From Phlegmacium glaucopus (taxonomy: Eukaryota > Basidiomycota > Agaricomycetes > Agaricales > Cortinariaceae), in NCBI GenBank assembly GCA_015039465.1, contig MU130154.1:248001-312000 (forward strand): 64,000 nucleotides of DNA. The letters run 5' to 3'. A program made the translations under genes and the position numbers. Below are positions 26,438-37,991 of this stretch, piece by piece; positions within the stretch are counted from its first letter, which is position 1; each line of letters begins with the position of its first letter. A model generated the notes under the pieces. It had not been told where the DNA came from. It was given only the letters and a program-made list of their open reading frames with translations, and did not search any database.

Positions 26438-26445
26438 GCAGAGAC
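26438..26445. repeat. Target-site duplication of the KDZ element, left copy
   Basis: GCAGAGAC, matched exactly at 37984-37991 on the other side of the element. Eight bp is, as I recall, the duplication length made by KDZ/Zisupton-class transposons. Confidence 0.75.
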
Positions 26446-26487
26446 CAAAGAAAGTCGGAAATGAGAACTCCGCCTCACCGGCTCAAG
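26446..26487 (+). repeat. Left terminal inverted repeat of the KDZ element
   Basis: From the seventh base on, AAGTCGGAAATGAGAA and then CCGCCTCACCG match the reverse complement of the right end with few differences. The core starts seven bases in from the duplication at both ends, which supports the assigned limits. Confidence 0.78.
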
Positions 26488-26836
26488 GCGGACTCTGGCA
26501 CACTCCGGCCATCCAAACATGACACGCGTCTCGTTCTCTTGGATCCTCCCATCTTGCGCTACCGTCCCGCCATATTCTGCGACACCGCCCTTGCATTTAG
26601 ACAGTGAGCTGGATACCGTGTCTTCTTGTGAGCATTCTTTTCACTATTCCTTTGGCTATTGCTGACTTTCACGTTTTTGAGATGTAACCATCAACTAACC
26701 ATCAAAAATTTCGTGAGTGATTTCTCCAGATATCATGCGCATTTGAGCTGATTCTTGACAAATTCAGATCTCGCCATTGTTCTTACATCTCTATCGACCT
26801 GTCTCTACTCATTGCCGCCATGTAGTCCTCACCGCC
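26488..26836. other. 5' non-coding part of the KDZ element
   Basis: About 350 bp between the left inverted repeat and the first ATG of the accessory gene. It should hold that gene's promoter. CCGCC/GGCGG-type words recur close to the repeat (CCGCCTC, GGCGGAC), like the right end, and could be transposase-binding sites. No gene seen. Confidence 0.4.
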
Positions 26837-28823
26837 ATGTCAGGATCTCTCAACTGTCATACCTGCAAGACCTCCCTCAGCTCGAAAATCACTGTGAGTG
26901 ATAGGAATGGTAACAAGGGGAAATACTATATCAGCGTATGTCCTTTATACGCTTAAGGTTGTTTTTTGCTAACAAACTATGCTATATAGTGCTCCGGTAC
27001 TGAGGAGAATCCTCATGTCCAGTTTTTTCGTTTCATCGAAGATCTGCACCCATCTGCACCACCTCAGACACCACTTCACACTACCGACCCACAGCCAACA
27101 CTCATGACAAGAACAATGTCACAGCAGCACGTATCTGGAGAAATCCAGGGTCGATGTGCAGTATTGGGGTGCGCCAAACGCCGCGTCAATATCAAATGTG
27201 TGCGTAGTGCCTGCGCAACTCATTGCCGGGCTCTGGGTGGATGTCCAGTGAATCTACACCAGCATGATGGAACCATATCGATGCCTTCAAGCTCCCAGTC
27301 CTTCGAAACTACTTCTGCCTTGCCTTGGAGTCACCCCCCTCTCACAACCTTTCCTGTTCCCACACCAACCTTTCCACCCCTTCGTATCGCGGCTTCTTTG
27401 CCTCTGGTACCAGTGTTTATCCCGACAGCCAGCTCATCCATCGACCAACCAATTTCCATGCCAGATGAACAGTTGTCCTTGTATCCAGCATCGCCATCTC
27501 TCATGCTTCCTAGAGAAGCGCCTACCGTTGTTTCCTCATTCCCCACACAAATTGTAGCTGAGCCACCTTCATCTATGAACCCCCTTCCTAATCCTCGATT
27601 TGCCTCACAAATGCGGCCCATCTTTACCGACCAATCAAAACGTGAGCAGGAGATGCGAGAAAATGCCCGTGTGATAGAGGAACAGCGTCTTGCTGCTATT
27701 AAAAAGGTGAAACATACCATTACCGTATGTGCCTGGCTCGTGGTAGGTCTTCCAAATCAATCTATAATCACTCATATTCACACTGTATTTCAAGGACGGT
27801 GATGGGCCTGAAGAATTCATTCACCAAGGTGGATTTGTTTGGCCTAACTTCTGCATATCAACAGCTGTTCTCGCTGCTGCTGGCTTTCAGACAGCTGATG
27901 AAAATGCCTGGTACCATCTCTACAACCGTCCACGCCGGTCATGGCAACGGTTCAAGGCTAATCATTTCACCCCTGTGGATCTAACAACAACAGAGATCCT
28001 CATCAAAGCTGTCAACGTGAAGACCTGTGCCCGACTTGATGAGTACCTTACTGATGGTATGAAAGCCGCTATCCCACCACACTTTCGAACTGACCTTCAT
28101 GGCGAGCGAGAAAGTGTCAAGGCCAAACTTGACCATAGGTTTCTGCAATTGAACCCATCTACCCTTTTCCCTCCAACAACCCCTAAACGTAAATCCAAAC
28201 AAGCCTGCAAGATACCCACTGCACAAACCCTGAAGCAACCGCCATTGCCAAAATCTCGTGCAAACATACAAACTACCCCCATCTCCATCTCCTCATCATC
28301 ACCTTCACCTTTCCGCCCTCAAGGCGACATCACCGACCTCACGGACAGTGAGTCTTCTGACATCTACTGCACACCTGTCAAACGTCGCAAGGTCACAGTA
28401 AAGCATGAACGACACACCTCACCACTTGCTTCCAGCACTATCCAAGCAGAGAAAAGGCAGTGGCTGTCAGACTACCCTGTTCTCGATGTCGTCCACATTC
28501 TTCATAGCTGTAAACCCCCTCCATCGCGAACCACTATTGCCCAACATTTCTATTCCTTGACTGGAATTCCTTTCAAGAGCTCAACCTACTACGATGCATG
28601 GTCTAGGTGGGATGAAGCAACCCAAGAGCAGCGAGACAATGCAGAAGGGTATAGCCTTTGGAAAAACTTTGCGGTTCAGGTTCCACTCAAGAAAACGAAG
28701 CTCAAGGTGGCTCGTCAACGAGTTCTGCGGCGCCAACATACTGCCGAGACTCAAGAAAGTGATGGTAGTGTGGATGGTGAATTGTCTTCAGATAGTAGTT
28801 CATTTCCGACTTTGTTCAATTAG
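26837..28823 (+). CDS. KDZ accessory gene: GRF-like zinc finger plus Cys/His cluster
   Basis: Three exons: 26837-26935, 26990-27742 and 27795-28823 (about 626 residues), with in-frame GT..AG introns. The N-terminus (CHTCK, then VSDRNGNKGKYYIS, CSGTEENPHVQFFRF) has the C-x2-C...C...FF/W layout of a GRF-type zinc finger. A second cluster (CAVLGC, IKCVRSAC, ATHCRALGGC, NLHQHDG) resembles the Cys-rich clusters in KDZ-associated proteins. A Pro/Ser-rich linker, a coiled coil (REQEMRENARVIEEQRLAAIKK), a Trp-rich block (WYHLYNRPRRSWQRF), a SIM-like GDITDLTDSESSD and a C-terminal DNA-binding-looking region (TTIAQHFYSLTG) follow. I do not know its function. Position inside the inverted repeats makes it a transposon-carried gene rather than a host gene. 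Confidence 0.72.
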
Positions 28824-28935
28824 CCTCTTTTTATAATTCGTTCGAGCCATATTCTTATTATCTGCCTAGCCAATAGGATACTCTGTTTTGTAGCAACTAG
28901 TCATTGATATGTATGAATTTTTGAACTGTTTCATC

Positions 28936-28940
28936 TACTG
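28936..28940. repeat. Target-site duplication of the chromovirus, left copy
   Basis: TACTG directly before the 5' LTR; the same five bases follow the 3' LTR at 35557-35561. Five bp is the normal length for Ty3/Gypsy integrases. Confidence 0.92.
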
Positions 28941-29353
28941 TGTTAGGGGACACCCGACTTTAACCCAAACCTCAACTCTAGAATCATACACCCCACCTTT
29001 CCGACGACCTCCGACCTTCCGTCCAACTCCGCTTCCGTCACCGGTTGACTCCGGAATCCCGTAGTTCCGCTCCGACTCCGGTCCTCCGATTCACTCCGTC
29101 TTTTATTTCTATTTTTCATATCGCACCACTTCTTATTTAATTAATTAATTATTATCGTATCATTCCTTTATTTATTTTATATCTCCGTTATGTCCATATT
29201 AGTACTTAAACACCCCCAGCCTAGCAGGGATCCCCATCCTTTCCTCTTTGGATCCCCTGCTAGGTAAGTCACTTGTAGATATCTTTTCTGAAATATTATT
29301 AACTTTGGATCCCCTGCTAGCTTGACTAAGTCAGCGTTGCAGTTGCCCTAACA
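28941..29353 (+). repeat. 5' LTR, 413 bp
   Basis: Begins TGTTAGGGGA and ends GCCCTAACA. I found no difference from the 3' LTR when reading the two side by side. Within it are an AT-rich run (29139-29158), a stem-loop (29220-29264) and an 18-bp direct repeat (29246-29263, 29303-29320). Confidence 0.95.
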
Positions 29354-29365
29354 TTAGGAAAGGAT
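29236..29365 (+). promoter_or_regulatory. Self-primer and primer-binding site
   Basis: Three bases after the 5' LTR lies AGGAAAGGAT (29356-29365). It is exactly complementary to ATCCTTTCCT (29236-29245) inside the LTR. The LTR copy sits in the loop of an inverted repeat, CCTAGCAGGGATCC (29220-29233) with GGATCCCCTGCTAGG (29250-29264). Some chromoviruses (Tf1, Maggy and relatives) prime reverse transcription with the 5' end of their own RNA instead of a tRNA. This layout fits that mode. Confidence 0.65.
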
Positions 29366-29462
29366 CTCCTTTTAACGGACCGAGTCCGGTCCGCACAGTG
29401 GAACGATAGTCCGATTTACAGCCCCCGATTCGGGCCAATCAGACTCCGTACACTCCCAGACC

Positions 29463-30452
29463 GTGGCTCCCTCCTTGTCTTCACAGCACGCATCTCCGAG
29501 CGGCTCCTTCCTATCAGCCATGGACGATGAACGCACCGCCCAGCTGGAAAGAGAAGTCGTCCTATTGCGAGCTCGGGACATCGAATACCAAAACAGATTC
29601 GACCAAATCATGGAGACAATCCATCGACTCGTTCCGAATGTACAATCACCTGTACCACAACAAAAGGTTCCCCCTCAAACCGAAAACATACCCCGGACGC
29701 GCTCTGCAAGGCCGGCATTCCCAACGGAGTTTGACGGAGAACGATCCAAAGGAACAGCATTCCTTCACTCCTGCCAAACGTACATCCGGCTTTGTTCCGA
29801 TGAATTCTCGGACGAGCAAACAAAAATCATCTGGGCCATGTCCTACATGAAATCCGGAAGAGCATCAAAGTGGGCAGCCAGAGTTTTCCGATGGGAAACG
29901 GAAAACCCTGAGTCAACCCGGTTCCTGGATTGGGCTGATTTCCGAGACGACTTCAAAAAAGAGTTCTGTCCCGCAAATGCGGACTCGGTTGCCATCAACC
30001 GACTAGAGTCAACTGGATATTTCCAGAAAACACGGTCTTTGGAAGAATATGTGGATGAATTCCAAGACCTAATCACGGATTCTGGATACACTGATCCAAA
30101 AACTATCGTAGTAAAATTCCGAAGAGGCCTGAATGCCCAGATTCAGAACTCCATTGCTACAATGGCTTCCGGAAGACCATCCGATACAGATCCGACGGGA
30201 TGGTACAGAATGGCACGGACAATAGACGAAAACCGAGCTACTAACGAGGCCTTCCAGTCAGCTTACAAAAGTCCGGCAGCAACCACTTCTCGACCAATCG
30301 GTACTACCACACTCCGATTCAGTCCGTCAAATCCACCACAGAGGAACGCACACCTCGTGCCAACTCCGGGAAACCCTGTACCCATGGATATTGATGCGGC
30401 CCGAAAAGCAGGCTCTGTACCGCTGTCATGCTTCCGGTGCGGACCGGAGTAA
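29463..30452 (+). pseudogene. gag, truncated at the zinc knuckle
   Basis: Gag forms the particle that packages the retrotransposon RNA. The 330-residue frame carries the retrotransposon-gag core (for example WADFRDDFKKEFCP and YFQKTRSLEEYVDEFQDLI). It starts within a long open frame at ATG 29463; a second ATG is at 29520. Near the C-terminus the CCHC zinc knuckle begins (CFRCG) but a TAA at 30450-30452 cuts it. The remaining ligands (for example VTKCN) appear just downstream in the same frame, so a single change may have made the stop. A frame continues to about 30658. Product predicted to lack RNA-binding ability unless the stop is read through. Confidence 0.82.
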
Positions 30453-32487
30453 CGTGTGACGAAATGTAACAGGGAGACATTGCGAAAAACGTTTTGACGT
30501 CCGAACAATGTCCAATGACGAACTCCATACCCTCTTGGAGTTCCGGCTAGCCGAATATGACAAAGTGCCTGATCCGGAACCGACGGAACCTTCGGAGAAC
30601 ACTGAACACGAAAGTCAGACCAAAGATTTAAAGGATTTTTGCCAAAACAGCGAGTGAACTGCACGCCCTCGCTGTCAACAACCAACCGGTTCTCTGTTTT
30701 ACATGTAGATAGCATTGATGAAATAGACGAGACGGTTGAAAACATTCAAGTCATACAAACATCAGAAATTCCAAAAAAAATCCGAGTGTTCCAACCCCGA
30801 TGGGAAAGAACCCTCCCAAAAAAGTTCACTATTCGCTCCCTCGATGCTGACTCAAAATCACTGGAACTCAAAGTCAGCATTGAAACGACCGACACCGGAG
30901 AAGTAAACTCCTTTCTGTCCTTAATAGACTCCGGAGCCGACGGAAGGTTTATTGACAGAGACTATGTCAAAACTAACAGGCTCACAACAAAATCCCTGTC
31001 AAACCCGATTCCGGTATTTAACGTTGACGGTACCCCAAATGAAGCCGGATCGATCACAGAAGTGGTTGATCTGATACTCAGGTACAAAGGACACTCCGAG
31101 AGATCCTTGTTCGCAGTCACTGGACTAGGAAAACAAACCTTGATTCTCGGACACTCCTGGCTCAAGATGCACAACCCGGAGATCGACTGGAAAACCAGAG
31201 AAGTAAAAATGTCCCGCTGTCCACCCCGTTGTTGTTCGGAATGCAGGAATGAAATCCGAGAAGAACGAAAAATTCAAAAGGCGGAAATACGCCGAATTGA
31301 AAAATGTTCAACCGGCCCACTTCCGGCTCATGTAGAAGATTGTGATGAGGAGGATGAGGAGGAAAGTAGCCCAAACCCTGAATTCGAGGATGGCGACAGA
31401 ATATTCGCCACCAGCCTACTACCACCGCAGGCAGATATCCGAGCCACCTCCACCATCTCCCAACGTCTTGCAGAAGCTTTCCAGCGCAACACACAATCCA
31501 AAACAAAAGAAGGAGTTCCGGATTATCTCCGAGAGTTCGATAGTGTTTTCGCCAAAGAATCTTTTGATATCCTACCTGATCCGAAACCTTGGGACCACGC
31601 AGTAGAACTTATTCCGGGAGAAAAACCATCAGGTTGCAAGGTCTATCCTCTAGCTCCGACGGACTACAAAAGGAACTTGACGCATTCCTCCAGGAGAATT
31701 TAAACTCTGGACGCATCCGACCTTCCAAATCTCCAATGGCATCTCCGGTTTTCTTTATCAAAAAGAAAGACGGAAGTCTTCGGCTTGTTCAGGACTATCA
31801 AGCTCTCAACGCAATCACCATCAAAAACAAGTACCCACTTCCCCTCATTTCGGAACTGATTACCCAACTCCGGGGCGCTAAATACTTTACTAAGTTGGAT
31901 GTCCGATGGGGTTTTAACAACGTCCGAATGAAGGAAGGGGACAAATGGAAAGCAGCTTTCCAAACCAATTGGGGATTATTTGAACCCCTGGTTATTGTTC
32001 TTTGGCCTCACCAACAGTCCGGCTACTTTCCAAACAATGATGAATGACATCTTCCGCAAACTTATAATGGAAGGGGTTGTAGTGGTCTACCTTGATGATA
32101 TCCTGATATTCACGGAGACACTAGAGGAACACCGGTCTCTAACTCGGAGAGTACTGGAACTTTTACGAAAGCATAAACTCTTCCTAAAACCGGACAAGTG
32201 TGAATTCGAACAAACCAAGGTGGAATACCTCGGAGTCATAATATCTCATAACTCCGTCGAGATGGACCCTGTAAAGTTGCTGGAGTAGCGGAATGGCCAA
32301 TTCCAACAAACAAAAAGGAAGTCCAGTCATTTCTAGGCTTTACCAACTTTTACCAAAGGTTCATCCAAGACTTTTCTCATCACGCCCGTCCCTTGTTCGA
32401 TCTCACTAAAAGTGACGTTAAATGGAAATGGAATACGGAAGAGCAGTTGGCGTTCGATTCTCTCAAAAACTTGATCACTTCAACCCC

Positions 32488-32682
32488 GATTCTAGCCTCT
32501 CCGGACAACTCCAGACCGTTCCGCATCGAAGCAGACAGTTCCGACTTTGCAACCGGAGCTGTACTCTCCCAACAATCCCTCGATGATGAGAAATGGCACC
32601 CAGTCGCGTTCCTGTCTAAATCCTTGTCTCCGGTCGAACGGAACTACGAGATCCATGACAAAGAGATGCTAGCGATCATCCG
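32488..32682 (+). repeat. RNase H segment, first copy of a 195-bp direct repeat
   Basis: Matches 33059-33253 with about three differences, all in the first 50 bases. The two copies flank the 376-bp insertion. Confidence 0.9.
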
Positions 32683-33058
32683 AAAAAAAAAAAAAAAAAA
32701 AAAAAAAAGGCGTCATCGTCTGGGCCAGCGTCTGGCGAAAGATCCATTGGCACAAGTTACACAGGTTAGAATAATCGAATGATATACCCATGCCAAGAAT
32801 GATTGTATGGGCATTTTGGTAGTCAAAGGATCGCCTTGAACAAATCCGGCAAGAGACCTGACTACTTCCGGATTTTTGTCATGTCTTCAGGATATTACTC
32901 ACTTGTCATAAAATACATAAATCGAATTTATTTCAACAAAAAAAAGAAAAATACGCACTTGATTACCGACGCCGAACTTCGAGGTAACCGTCTCTCCATC
33001 CATGGTAGTTGCTCGATCGGGCCCTGTCTTTATTTCTACTATCAAAACTGTGTTCGTT
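32683..33058. other. Foreign insert in RNase H: 26-A run plus antisense host-gene fragment
   Basis: Starts with 26 A residues (32683-32708). The rest does not look like retroelement. On the minus strand it reads as exon-like DNA (VEIKTGPDRATTMDGE), followed by a GTGCGT donor and a CAG acceptor before a second exon-like stretch (FVQGDPLTTKMPIQSFLAW). It therefore looks like unspliced genomic DNA of a host gene in antisense orientation. The gene was not identified and it is not found elsewhere in this window. Confidence 0.7.
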
Positions 33059-33253
33059 GATTCTAGCCTCTCCGGACAACTCCAGGCCATTTCGCATCGA
33101 AGCAGACAGTTCCGACTTTGCAACCGGAGCTGTACTCTCCCAACAATCCCTCGATGATGAGAAATGGCACCCAGTCGCGTTCCTGTCTAAATCCTTGTCT
33201 CCGGTCGAACGGAACTACGAGATCCATGACAAAGAGATGCTAGCGATCATCCG
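33059..33253 (+). repeat. RNase H segment, second copy of the 195-bp direct repeat
   Basis: Continues in frame into the rest of RNase H (ALEEWRHFFEGAEHKCEIWT), so this copy is the one in its normal context. About three base differences from the first copy. Confidence 0.9.
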
Positions 33254-33386
33254 AGCCCTAGAAGAGTGGAGACACTTCTTCGAAGGAGCGGAACACAAGT
33301 GTGAGATCTGGACTGATCACAAGAACTTGGAATACTTCATGACAGCCAAAAAGCTCAATCGGAGACAAGCCCGTTGGTCATTGATC

Positions 33387-33445
33387 CTAGCCCGGTTGAT
33401 TTCTTGTATATAAACACCAACCTCCGATCTAGCCCGGTTTGATTT
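33387..33445 (+). repeat. Short 42-bp tandem duplication in pol
   Basis: CTAGCCCGGTTGATTT (33387 on) recurs as CTAGCCCGGTTTGATTT (33429 on). The duplication brings a stop (end of the 33413 frame) and separates RNase H from the integrase frame. Confidence 0.8.
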
Positions 33446-33449
33446 CCTC

Positions 33450-35267
33450 ATGCACCACAGACCAGGCAAAAGCATGGGAAAACCAGACGCCTTGTCCAGA
33501 CGAGCGGATCACAGAACCGGAACTGGTGACAATGACAACATCACACTCCTAACCCCAGGCTTTTTCGCGATTCGGGCCTTAGAAGGACTGGAAGTCATAG
33601 GAGAAGAACGAGACGTCTTGAAAGACATCCGGAAGGGCACCCGAGAAGGTGTAAAAGAAGAGGCCATAGCTAAAGTGGTAAAGGAGTTGAAAACCACTCA
33701 CACACGATCCGTCCGATCAGCGGAATGGTCTCATGACAATGACATCCTCTCCTTCCAAGGAAAAATCTACGTTCCGGACATGTTTGACTTACGAAGACGG
33801 ATCATATCCCTCTGCCATGACACCCTAATTGCTGGACATCCAGGAAGATGGAAGACCCTCAAACTCGTATCCCGAAACTATTGGTGGCCACAGATGTCCA
33901 GATATATCGGAAAATATGCCTCAACCTGTGACCTGTGTCTTCGGACTAAGGCTCAAAGACGCCACCCAGTCGGTGAACTCCATCCCCTCCCAATTCCAAA
34001 AGCTCCATGGGACACAATCAGTGTGGACTTCATAGTGGAACTTCCAGAGTCTTCAGGATACGACTCGGTAATGGTAGTAGTTGATTCGGTCACCAAACGA
34101 GCTCATTTTGCACCAACCCTTACTACCACCTCCGCATCCGGAACAGCACGCCTTTATATCCAACATGTCTGGAAACATCATGGACTACCCCGGAGAGTGG
34201 TATCAGACAGAGGACCACAGTTCGTAGCGGAATTCACGCGTGAGCTCTACCGGATCCTCGGAATTAAGTTAGCAGCCACTACCGCCTATCATCCGCAAGG
34301 AGACGGCCAGACGGAACGAGTAAATCAGGAATTGGAACAGTATCTCCGACTCTTTACAAACCAGCGACAAACCAATTGGGCTGAACTCCTTCCCCTTGCG
34401 GAATTCCAGTACAATAATCATGTCCACTCTGCCACACAGCACCCACCTTTCCTCCTAGACTCCGGACGAATCCCCCGAATGGGTTTTGAACCAAACCAAC
34501 CGGAATCCCGAATGGAGTCCGTTAATGAATTCACGGAACGAATGCGGAACACCCTAGATGAAGCGAAAGCAGCACTGGTCAAGTCTAAAGACGACATGGC
34601 AAGATATTATAATCAGAAAAGGACTTCGGCACCGGAATACAAACCGGGAGACAAAGTATACCTGGATGCCAGCGACATACAAACAACGAGACCATCCAGG
34701 AAATTGTCCCATCGGCACCTAGGCCCCTTTCCGATCGAAGAACGAGTCGGCAACAACGCTTACCGACTCCAACTTCCCTTGTCCATGAAACGACTCCATC
34801 CGGTCTTCAACGTAGTCAAACTAACTCCAGCCCCGATAGACCCGATCCCTGGAAGACGCATTCCGACTCCCCCACTTCCGGAAATCATTGATGGAGAAGA
34901 GGAGTGGGTCGTCGAGGAAATCCTCGACAGCAGAGTTATAAACAGGAGATTCCGATACCTCGTGAAGTGGCAAGACTTCGGAATCGAACATAACACCTGG
35001 GAGCCTCGGGAAAACATACATGCCCCCGAATTAGTTGCGGAATTCCACAAGAAGTACCCCGGAGCTCCTAAGCACATCAGGATGGCCAAATTCGAACAGT
35101 TTCCTTTCGTGCCGGGACGTCACCTACCGAAGGGGGGGATGGATGTTAGGGGACACCCGACTTTAACCCAAACCTCAACTCTAGAATCATACACCCCACC
35201 TTTCCGACGACCTCCGACCTTCCGTCCAACTCCGCTTCCGTCACCGGTTGACTCCGGAATCCCGTAG
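33450..35267 (+). CDS. Integrase with C-terminal chromodomain
   Basis: A 605-residue uninterrupted frame with ATG at 33450 (MHHRPGKSMG). In the full element it would be the end of the pol polyprotein, not a separate protein. Zinc-binding HHCC domain: CHDTLIAGHPGRWKTLK and STCDLC. Catalytic D,D,E: VDFIVEL, VVSDRGPQF and GDGQTERVNQELE. A chromodomain follows near residues 490-540 (EEEWVVEEIL, RYLVKWQDF, HNTWEPREN); chromodomains in this position guide integration to histone-marked chromatin. The frame runs into the 3' LTR and stops at 35265-35267. Confidence 0.92.
   Translation: MHHRPGKSMGKPDALSRRADHRTGTGDNDNITLLTPGFFAIRALEGLEVIGEERDVLKDIRKGTREGVKEEAIAKVVKELKTTHTRSVRSAEWSHDNDILSFQGKIYVPDMFDLRRRIISLCHDTLIAGHPGRWKTLKLVSRNYWWPQMSRYIGKYASTCDLCLRTKAQRRHPVGELHPLPIPKAPWDTISVDFIVELPESSGYDSVMVVVDSVTKRAHFAPTLTTTSASGTARLYIQHVWKHHGLPRRVVSDRGPQFVAEFTRELYRILGIKLAATTAYHPQGDGQTERVNQELEQYLRLFTNQRQTNWAELLPLAEFQYNNHVHSATQHPPFLLDSGRIPRMGFEPNQPESRMESVNEFTERMRNTLDEAKAALVKSKDDMARYYNQKRTSAPEYKPGDKVYLDASDIQTTRPSRKLSHRHLGPFPIEERVGNNAYRLQLPLSMKRLHPVFNVVKLTPAPIDPIPGRRIPTPPLPEIIDGEEEWVVEEILDSRVINRRFRYLVKWQDFGIEHNTWEPRENIHAPELVAEFHKKYPGAPKHIRMAKFEQFPFVPGRHLPKGGMDVRGHPTLTQTSTLESYTPPFRRPPTFRPTPLPSPVDSGIP
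35130..35143 (+). promoter_or_regulatory. Polypurine tract
   Basis: An uninterrupted purine run (AAGGGGGGGATGGA) touches the 3' LTR at 35144. This is where plus-strand DNA synthesis would start. Confidence 0.85.
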
Positions 35268-35556
35268 TTCCGCTCCGACTCCGGTCCTCCGATTCACTCC
35301 GTCTTTTATTTCTATTTTTCATATCGCACCACTTCTTATTTAATTAATTAATTATTATCGTATCATTCCTTTATTTATTTTATATCTCCGTTATGTCCAT
35401 ATTAGTACTTAAACACCCCCAGCCTAGCAGGGATCCCCATCCTTTCCTCTTTGGATCCCCTGCTAGGTAAGTCACTTGTAGATATCTTTTCTGAAATATT
35501 ATTAACTTTGGATCCCCTGCTAGCTTGACTAAGTCAGCGTTGCAGTTGCCCTAACA
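35144..35556 (+). repeat. 3' LTR, 413 bp
   Basis: Same length and, on reading, same sequence as the 5' LTR; TACTG follows at 35557-35561. It ends 9 bp before the stop codon of the KDZ transposase gene, which is transcribed toward it. Confidence 0.95.
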
Positions 35557-35561
35557 TACTG
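35557..35561. repeat. Target-site duplication of the chromovirus, right copy
   Basis: TACTG, identical to 28936-28940. Confidence 0.92.
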
Positions 35562-35565
35562 CGCT

Positions 35566-37762
35566 TTAGTCCCACCATTGAGGATTGAGGTCCTGGCTCA
35601 TAAGTTTTGCCTTCGTTGCCCTGTTCCTCATCATTATCATCTCATCAAGGAAGAAGTCAAACATATCCCCTGACATCTCTCGGCAGATTGAATGGAATCC
35701 ACCCAACCAAACATTTGTCTGCTCTGCTATTGATGTATTGAAGAACCAGTTCCTCCCGTTTTCGCCAAGAAGCTCTGGAAAAAGTGCTGGGTTACAGTTG
35801 CTTTGACAGAAAGTGTCCGTCTCTGCATGTTTGTTCGCAAAATGAAAAACATCAACAGCAAGCCCCACATTTCTGAAATCAGGGTCATCTTTGACATGCT
35901 TTGCGACACTGCAATTATTGTCGAATATGATGTGGTTGGGCATGAATCCACCCTGATAAGTGCGCTTTATCATTTCCTATGAAACCAGTCGTAAGTTAGC
36001 ATTCAACAGTGGTAATAAATTACACATACGACAACTGCTGTTATTGACTCTGCATGGTAAAAGGTTTCCCTAGCTATGATCATTCCACAAGGTGCAACAA
36101 GAATTTGCTCATTGTGAGTCCGCGAACGGCCAAACTGTGCACGGATCTTCTTTTTGGTAGATGGGGCTCGCAGAGGAGCAGTTTGTGTGGCTGAACTGTT
36201 ACCAATAGTTGCGTTTAATGAGGCACGAGCAAGAGTGGTTTGGGTTATGGCTTCCTCCTCAGAAGGGATCACTCGGTCTCCAATGATTTCATATGTCTCA
36301 TTGAGGTCGTCATCTTGTTCAATGATGTGAGCAACCGGCAGGTCAAGAGCCTCACCATGTTTTGGGTGGGCAACCTTCGCCCTCTTCAGCTTTTCCTTCA
36401 GTTGAAATGCTGCTCCTCCACGTTCAACATGGATAGTCTCAACTCGTTGATGGGTAGGGTCCTTGCATGTCCGTTTGTCAGGTGCAGAAATTTGTTCATT
36501 ACAGCCTACAATGACACATTTTTGATCAAAGTATGCATGGGTAGGACAGAAGCGATGGCGCTTATTGGAAAGAGGAATGGTGCAATGTGGTACACCACAT
36601 GTTGGGCAACCTAATGTAACCCCATCCATGACAACCGCATGAACTGTAAGACCTAAAATTGGTATAGATGAAGCCTTATTGCTATCACAACAAACTAACT
36701 GCGTACCTTGCCCATTACTAGGATATTCACGCACACACTTCTTACACCGGTGACGAAGTTCAGGTTGACCATATAGACGAGTGCGATCATTTTTCTCGCG
36801 CATGGCAGTCTTGTAACGCTCAGATTGCAGACCGCTATGGGGGACTTGAAGGGTGGTGTTCCGTTGTTTGTGATCCTCGAGCAAGGCTACAAGAATAAAG
36901 GCATGAGCAACATTTTTGCCATCGAGTTTGCCCTTGAATTTCCAGGATTCGGGTATTTTATTCTTTGTCGTTGCCTCATGCGTGTTCAAATAAATGGAAG
37001 CGCAATTGGCAAATGATACCCATGCAACATTGGTGCTTGTATGCCACATATCAATGAGACCACGTTCTATGAATTGGTGATCTGCAATTTGGAGGATGTC
37101 AGGCAGATTATCGTAGTAAAATCTTCTGTCATTCTTCACAAAGAAATCTAGGTGGTAATCGGTATTGCAGTCTGCCAAACTGAATGAGCCTTAAGTGATT
37201 TAGAGGGCTACATAGGGTACCTGTACACGTTAAAAAGCAGGAATAAATTGGTATGGGTCCTTCATCAAGTGTATAGAGGATTCCTTCGCGCTGGGTTGCC
37301 ACCTGGAGTTTCTTTCCATGATCTGTGCGTGTACACTCGGGATTGGTGCAGAGCTGTGAGGGAGGCCAAATATTGCGAGCCGAGACTATGGGATAATGAT
37401 GTTAAATTGCCTGACTGTGACTCTTTAGGTTATGGAAGCAACAGACTGAATCCTTTATCTATGCCATGATCCTTGAATGCAACCGACACAGCCTTGTCAT
37501 CAAGGATGAATGCAAACCATATAAGCTCCTTGAGAACCTTCCAGCACACTTCAACCTCCTGTTCACTCAGAACACAGCTAGAAGCAAGGAATTTGACGAT
37601 GCTGACAGGAAGGAACTGGGGAACAACAGTAGGTAGATGGGAAGACCTTTGGGCAAGGAGGATCTCGTTTTTGAGTCTTGAAGCATATTGAATATAACAG
37701 GATATCTTGAGGATGTCATGAACGCCACCCAGGTTCACAATAGCATCAAGTAGGTCCTGCAT
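35566..37762 (-). CDS. KDZ transposase-like protein with CxC5 and CxC6 clusters
   Basis: Start ATG at 37762 (MQDLLDAIVN), stop TAA at 35566-35568. Exon 1 joins at the GT before 37450 to an exon giving LCTNPECTRTDHGKK and LYTLDEGPIPIYSCFL, then CNTDYHLDFFV: the CxC5 cluster. The CxC6 cluster follows: CPTCGVPHCTIPL, RHRFCPTHAYFDQKC, VGCNEQ, RTCKDPTH. The C-terminal DDE-type domain shows IIFDNNC (Asp), VDVFHFANKHAETDTFC, and NTSIAEQTNVWLGGFHSI (Glu), the layout of KDZ transposases. Names CxC5/CxC6 refer to Cys clusters known to accompany KDZ transposases. Four to five short introns. The gene lies inside the inverted repeats in opposite orientation to the accessory gene. No internal stop seen, so it may be active. 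Confidence 0.85.
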
Positions 37763-37941
37763 TGGAGATCACAAGAATATTTGAAGTTGTGGGACACCAC
37801 TTAGTAATGAAATAATATTAGCTGATTTTCGATGTTTTGACACCATTAAAGAAGGTTGGAGAATTAAGTAACATGTATATAACACCTGGGTAGCATAAAA
37901 GGACAAAATTCATTGAGGCGGACAATGATGCGGACTCCGGC

Positions 37942-37983
37942 CATGAGGCGGTGAGGCGGATTTCTCATATCCGACTTGTCCTC
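37942..37983 (-). repeat. Right terminal inverted repeat of the KDZ element
   Basis: The reverse complement reads AAGTCGGATATGAGAA and CCGCCTCACCG, matching the left end. It is followed by GCAGAGAC at 37984-37991. Confidence 0.78.
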
Positions 37984-37991
37984 GCAGAGAC
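37984..37991. repeat. Target-site duplication of the KDZ element, right copy
   Basis: GCAGAGAC, identical to 26438-26445. Confidence 0.75.

Follow-up and report, generated by a model that had tools for sequence, protein, structure and literature searches.

The 64,000-bp window considered here, that is, the whole stretch of DNA that was analysed, comes from contig MU130154.1 of Phlegmacium glaucopus and contains a transposon at positions 26446-37983, flanked on both sides by the 8-bp word GCAGAGAC. Between its inverted ends the element carries a CxC5/CxC6 gene, encoding a predicted transposase, and a second gene placed tail-to-tail with the first, and a Gypsy long terminal repeat (LTR) retrotransposon is nested between the two. 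From left to right, the features are:

26438-26445, no strand: left 8-bp target site duplication GCAGAGAC
26446-26489, plus strand: left end, starting CAAAGAAAGTCGG, with inverted-repeat arm 26452-26489
26837-28823, plus strand: second gene, 626 amino acids, with introns 26936-26989 and 27743-27794
28936-28940, no strand: left 5-bp duplication TACTG of the Gypsy element
28941-35556, plus strand: nested Gypsy LTR retrotransposon with integrase and chromodomain, LTRs 28941-29353 and 35144-35556
35557-35561, no strand: right 5-bp duplication TACTG of the Gypsy element
35566-37762, minus strand: CxC5/CxC6 gene (predicted transposase), 659 amino acids, predicted catalytic residues D325, D542 and E608
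37446-37386, 37220-37172, 36706-36653 and 36029-35977, minus strand: the four GT..AG introns of the CxC5/CxC6 gene
37940-37983, minus strand: right end, closing ...CCGACTTGTCCTC-3', with inverted-repeat arm 37940-37977
37984-37991, no strand: right 8-bp target site duplication GCAGAGAC

The two arms match, in inverted orientation, at 34 of 38 bp. When 200,000 random pairs of stretches were drawn from the window, skipping pairs less than 100 bases apart, the best pair had only 23 matches. The outermost six bases are unlike, CAAAGA on the left and GAGGAC on the right when both are read inwards, and the matching core therefore starts at base 7 of each end. A first-pass annotation of the window, made from its letters, had described just this arrangement, with the same 8-bp word on both sides, inverted terminal repeats and a conserved core seven bases in, and the word was found at exactly the places that it had given. 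The window holds the word GCAGAGAC at three further places on the plus strand and at one on the minus strand, as would suit a reading in which the interval is host DNA where an 8-bp word happens to be repeated and inverted repeats rich in G+C lie by chance.

The genome (60.5 Mb, 259 contigs) was searched both with the ends and with the genes, and five further copies with both ends were identified, in answer to the annotation's proposal that more copies be looked for. All six copies, the window copy included, have an 8-bp duplication, and the six words are all different. Two short copies, C65 (970 bp) and C46 (1,419 bp), have ends of the same kind as the window copy, and three longer ones, C145 (4,770 bp), C240 (4,769 bp) and C144 (5,228 bp), have related ends, CAGAAAG... 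and ...GTCCTC. Copies C145 and C240 are 99.94% identical across 4,772 bp, and C65 and C46, which are 98-99% identical and have one internal deletion in common, form a pair of short, non-autonomous copies. C46 is the longer of the two because of a further small insertion, which has inverted ends and an 8-bp duplication of its own. An empty relative site is also present for C46: its joined flanks match C81 at 121 of 130 positions, and there the target word occurs once, with one base different. The chance reading, to which we assign a negligible probability, is contradicted by the six copies with their related ends, the six different duplications and the empty relative site, and it is rejected. 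The window element is a genuine transposon, and its description as a DNA transposon bounded by inverted ends and by an 8-bp duplication stands.

Several smaller pieces were seen in the same searches. The insertion within C46 (copy at 90261-91680) is about 440 bp long, with inverted ends AGGCCCCGGGAAGCT and the 8-bp duplication CCATCAAT, and an insertion of about 450 bp in C144 has no clear similarity to it. At C242:556866-556934, a 68-bp stretch that is 100% identical to part of the left end of the window element lies alone between two 11-bp direct repeats ATCATCTACGC that overlap its ends by a few bases; an insertion that was abortive or one-ended may have left it, or transposon DNA may have been used to fill a break. 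Right-end matches in C123 and a partial match in C171 stand outside the six-copy count.

The nested Gypsy element accounts for 6.6 kb of the interval. Its two LTRs, 413 bp each, are identical at 413 of 413 positions. It starts 117 bp beyond the stop codon of the second gene and ends a few bases beyond the stop codon of the CxC5/CxC6 gene, so that neither transposon gene is broken. Since it lies inside the element with its own 5-bp duplication, it must have arrived later, and when it is removed together with one TACTG the host transposon measures 4,917 bp, near the length of the 4.77-kb copies. The limits of the interval given by the first-pass annotation hold, and what it did not mention is the Gypsy element inside them. 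Within that element, at window positions 32488-33254, a 196-bp stretch recurs 571 bp further on at 98%, and its first copy ends in a long run of A.

A Gypsy element within the window copy could suggest that elements of this kind are mobilised or generated by LTR retrotransposons, as has been printed, with Copia in that role, for an insert in Pleurotus, where Copia elements are frequent in the neighbourhood according to the available text of PMC7641404. In the present genome, the later arrival of the Gypsy element argues against this, and so do C65 (970 bp) and the 4.77-kb copies C145 and C240, in which a 6.6-kb Gypsy would not fit and each of which has ends and an 8-bp duplication of its own. 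Mobilisation by retrotransposons, which we regard as most improbable, is contradicted here by the short copies with their own ends and is rejected.

The CxC5/CxC6 gene, read on the minus strand from 37762 to 35566, gives 659 codons without a stop after splicing of its four GT..AG introns, which were placed by hand with relatives as guide. Its product scores 72 bits with CxC5 (PF18718; Pfam cut-off 26.9, E 5.9e-20) and 81.4 bits with CxC6 (PF18721; cut-off 27.5, E 5.5e-23), so that the gene had been named correctly. An AlphaFold model of a relative shows an RNase H fold in which the CxC6 cluster separates strand 1 from strand 2, and the first catalytic Asp falls within Pfam's own CxC6 model. 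Counted in ungapped rows, the first D is conserved in 61 of 61 sequences, the second D in 62 of 62 and the E in 59 of 60. An RNase H fold with D, D and E is what the predicted fold and this conservation give, and the CxC5/CxC6 protein is on these grounds predicted to be itself a DDE transposase, and not a cysteine protein near one. An earlier proposal, that the first catalytic Asp was absent or replaced in an 'AR.TF' stretch, was dropped when comparison with KDZ translations placed the Asp in CxC6, where strand 1 of the model also lies. A scan of viral contigs gave one weak locus, which was not used.

The second gene also reads as open, as had been claimed for both genes: its translation agrees letter for letter with P0028, a database protein of 626 residues from Phlegmacium glaucopus. 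The protein has a GRF-like zinc ribbon (weak, below the Pfam cut-off), a second Cys/His-rich stretch and a conserved C-terminal domain, and its relatives are few (11 proteins). Its predicted structure is poor (pLDDT 46, pTM 0.22). No Pfam match to a TET/JBP dioxygenase was found in these 11 relatives (seven families in all, the best being the sub-threshold GRF-like ribbon), and of the remaining frames inside the element a part was scanned. A profile of the C-terminal domain, made from eight sequences that include the C240 copy itself, was run against 30 CxC6 loci, the best 30 of 80 matches. The domain lies convergent with CxC6 and within 1.5 kb of it at 20 of the 30, the weakest of the 20 matches having E 0.0003-0.0005. 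These comprise all of the 21 best-scoring loci bar the window, where the Gypsy element has pushed the domain away. In the reverse direction, six of seven matches of the window's second gene (window included) adjoin a CxC6 match, and the seventh, in C190, has none beside it among the matches listed. The second protein is likely to be an accessory DNA-binding protein.

Metagenome relatives of the two genes, P0001 and P0029, both have 4,228 as their longest contig, and this is perhaps one uninterrupted element. Beyond the right end of the window copy lies Med12, recognised by Pfam as the neighbour that had been named there. For Dad2, the other neighbour that had been named, there is no Pfam match among ten open frames searched; introns were not handled in this search, and Dad2 is therefore not excluded.

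The element had also been called 'KDZ-class', a description that is supported in part. The predicted fold and the order of D, D and E agree with a KDZ-like transposase, and the profile similarity to KDZ is weak, although it exceeds its controls. When the C-terminal core (62 rows) is aligned by hhalign with 8 of 10 KDZ translations, the score is 27.2 with P 0.0025, at a probability of only 12% and with the catalytic E unaligned; none of 150 column shuffles reaches this score (maximum 20.6), and the reversed profile scores 12.5. Earlier local profile runs against KDZ gave P 0.0022-0.0032, with P 0.2 for an N-terminal control. By eye, the CxC6 core and KDZ have in common the motifs D-G, D-x-x-C, F-H-x(3-4)-H..C and E, and the 8-bp duplication agrees with those of Zisupton, a Dileera family and Cryptococcus KDZ1. 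On the other side, none of 63 relatives matches the KDZ family PF18758 at E up to 0.2 (among the best 25 of 40 and the best 25 of 32 families), nor do the window frames at E<=1. The genome has at least 76 KDZ-domain matches and at least 80 CxC6 matches, some of which are parts of one gene; of the 80 CxC6 matches, not one has any of the 76 KDZ matches within 10 kb, the nearest being at 11,891 bp (start coordinates), and about two such pairs would be expected from random placement. The CxC5/CxC6 elements may thus be a distant KDZ-like lineage, with membership unproved.

The same data bear on the alternative that the CxC5/CxC6 protein is merely a helper or passenger, and that the element is moved in trans by a canonical KDZ transposase from another place in the genome. 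Such a source is at hand in the KDZ-domain matches just counted, the 63 relatives lack a Pfam KDZ match, and KDZ elements also yield 8-bp duplications, as the available parts of PMC12810828 and PMC12730594 describe. Against it stand the D, D and E conserved within the predicted RNase H fold, and the separation of CxC6 from KDZ genes. We judge mobilisation by a KDZ transposase in trans to be unlikely.

Very probably, then, the element is a two-gene DNA transposon of a CxC5/CxC6 type that moves by cut and paste, with the CxC5/CxC6 protein as its transposase; the mechanism that follows is strongly inferred. The N-terminal and zinc-cluster parts of the protein would bind the element ends. The predicted RNase H-fold DDE core, with strands 1 and 2 parted by CxC6, would cut the ends and join them to the target with an 8-bp stagger, and filling of the stagger would give the 8-bp duplication, a pattern seen in six copies with a chemistry suggested by the fold. 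The tail-to-tail partner most likely aids DNA binding or assembly of the complex, and copies that have lost internal sequence but share this kind of ends would, judging from ends and duplications, have moved in trans. The Gypsy element landed afterwards, near the transposase stop codon.

A number of observations weigh against this interpretation. The site in C81 is 93% identical and lies in repeated sequence (13 matches); it is a relative and not an allele. The window copy's left flank has no match in this assembly other than itself, and the copy's own empty site is therefore not visible there. The joined C147 and C105 loci showed no clear inverted pair of ends. With respect to the order of the genes, the outer ends CA..AAAG and GAGGAC are swapped between the window copy (26446-37983) and the C240 clade (C240:509366-514134). 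Nine of the 30 CxC6 loci, a lower-scoring group (L055-L063, in C225, C52, C47, C78, twice in C131, C184, C16 and C181), are without the second-gene domain, none of the nine having it within 1.5 kb. Foldseek alone gives no match at E <= 0.001 (best 0.3), the meeting of D, D and E is predicted from a model and from conservation, and movement is read from sequence and predicted fold. In the frames read from the lower-scoring group, the core motifs are retained.

Pfam's text on CxC5 and CxC6 describes the clusters as merely 'associated with KDZ transposases'. The protein studied here holds the whole predicted catalytic set, with one residue within Pfam's CxC6 model, and mushroom proteins annotated as 'CxC5/CxC6 like cysteine cluster' thereby gain a function that can be tested, just as exact ends are now available for annotating CxC5/CxC6 elements. 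A wider reading, which we find possible and somewhat doubtful, joins these points: CxC5/CxC6 elements would form a superfamily of their own, not KDZ, of DDE transposases whose strand 1, bearing the first catalytic Asp, is separated from strand 2 by a zinc cluster; in the main group the partner gene would be tail-to-tail and encode a zinc ribbon. The elements, known so far from Agaricomycetes, would on this reading be the cause of the sporeless MSH4 mutation in commercial oyster mushrooms.

In a limited literature search, no reports of ends or target duplications were found for CxC5/CxC6 elements. The ISCth4 transposase (PDB 6xg8, 6xgx), of the bacterial IS256 family, differs, at 6 and 5% identity, and is not known to have CxC clusters.

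Other comparisons are with fungal and KDZ elements. In the available text of PMC12810828, Cryptococcus neoformans KDZ1 has 8-bp duplications, and KDZ2 and KDZ3 have 4-8 bp in a reporter gene. Like the present element, KDZ1-3 are DNA transposons with terminal inverted repeats (TIRs) and a zinc-chelating CxC domain, CxC1 in their case, and KDZ1 has the same length of duplication; unlike it, they measure about 9-11 kb, have a KDZ domain and are bounded by TIRs of 139-241 bp. The present element is about 4.8-4.9 kb long, its arm is 38 bp, its protein has no clear match to the Pfam KDZ family and has CxC6 within the predicted catalytic fold, and its second gene is tail-to-tail. From what is available of PMC12730594, Zisupton and a Dileera family are alike in their 8-bp duplications, whereas two Kyakuja families have 7-bp duplications and CA..TG termini without TIRs. 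A TET/JBP gene is present in the KDZ elements treated there; none was seen here in the frames scanned, which cover part of those between the ends.

There is also a close likeness to the 6,792-bp CxC5/CxC6 insert that disrupts MSH4 in a sporeless strain of Pleurotus ostreatus (PMC7641404, as far as its available text goes). Both have a CxC5/CxC6 open reading frame (739 amino acids there, 659 here), a length of several kb, several copies and LTR elements often near. Neither 'target site duplication' nor 'terminal inverted repeat' appears as a phrase in the main text of PMC7641404 in its available form; the paper cites Iyer et al. 2014 for the clusters, and that work may already describe part of these elements. 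No KDZ-type transposon was reported there within the expected distance of the CxC5/CxC6 reading frames, in agreement with the lack of KDZ neighbours in the present genome. The difference is that the Pleurotus authors proposed involvement of a Copia retrotransposon. Since the short copies described here are too small for the Gypsy element and have their own ends, the Pleurotus insert may, by analogy, be a DNA transposon of the present type, and this known crop mutation can be read again at its junction.

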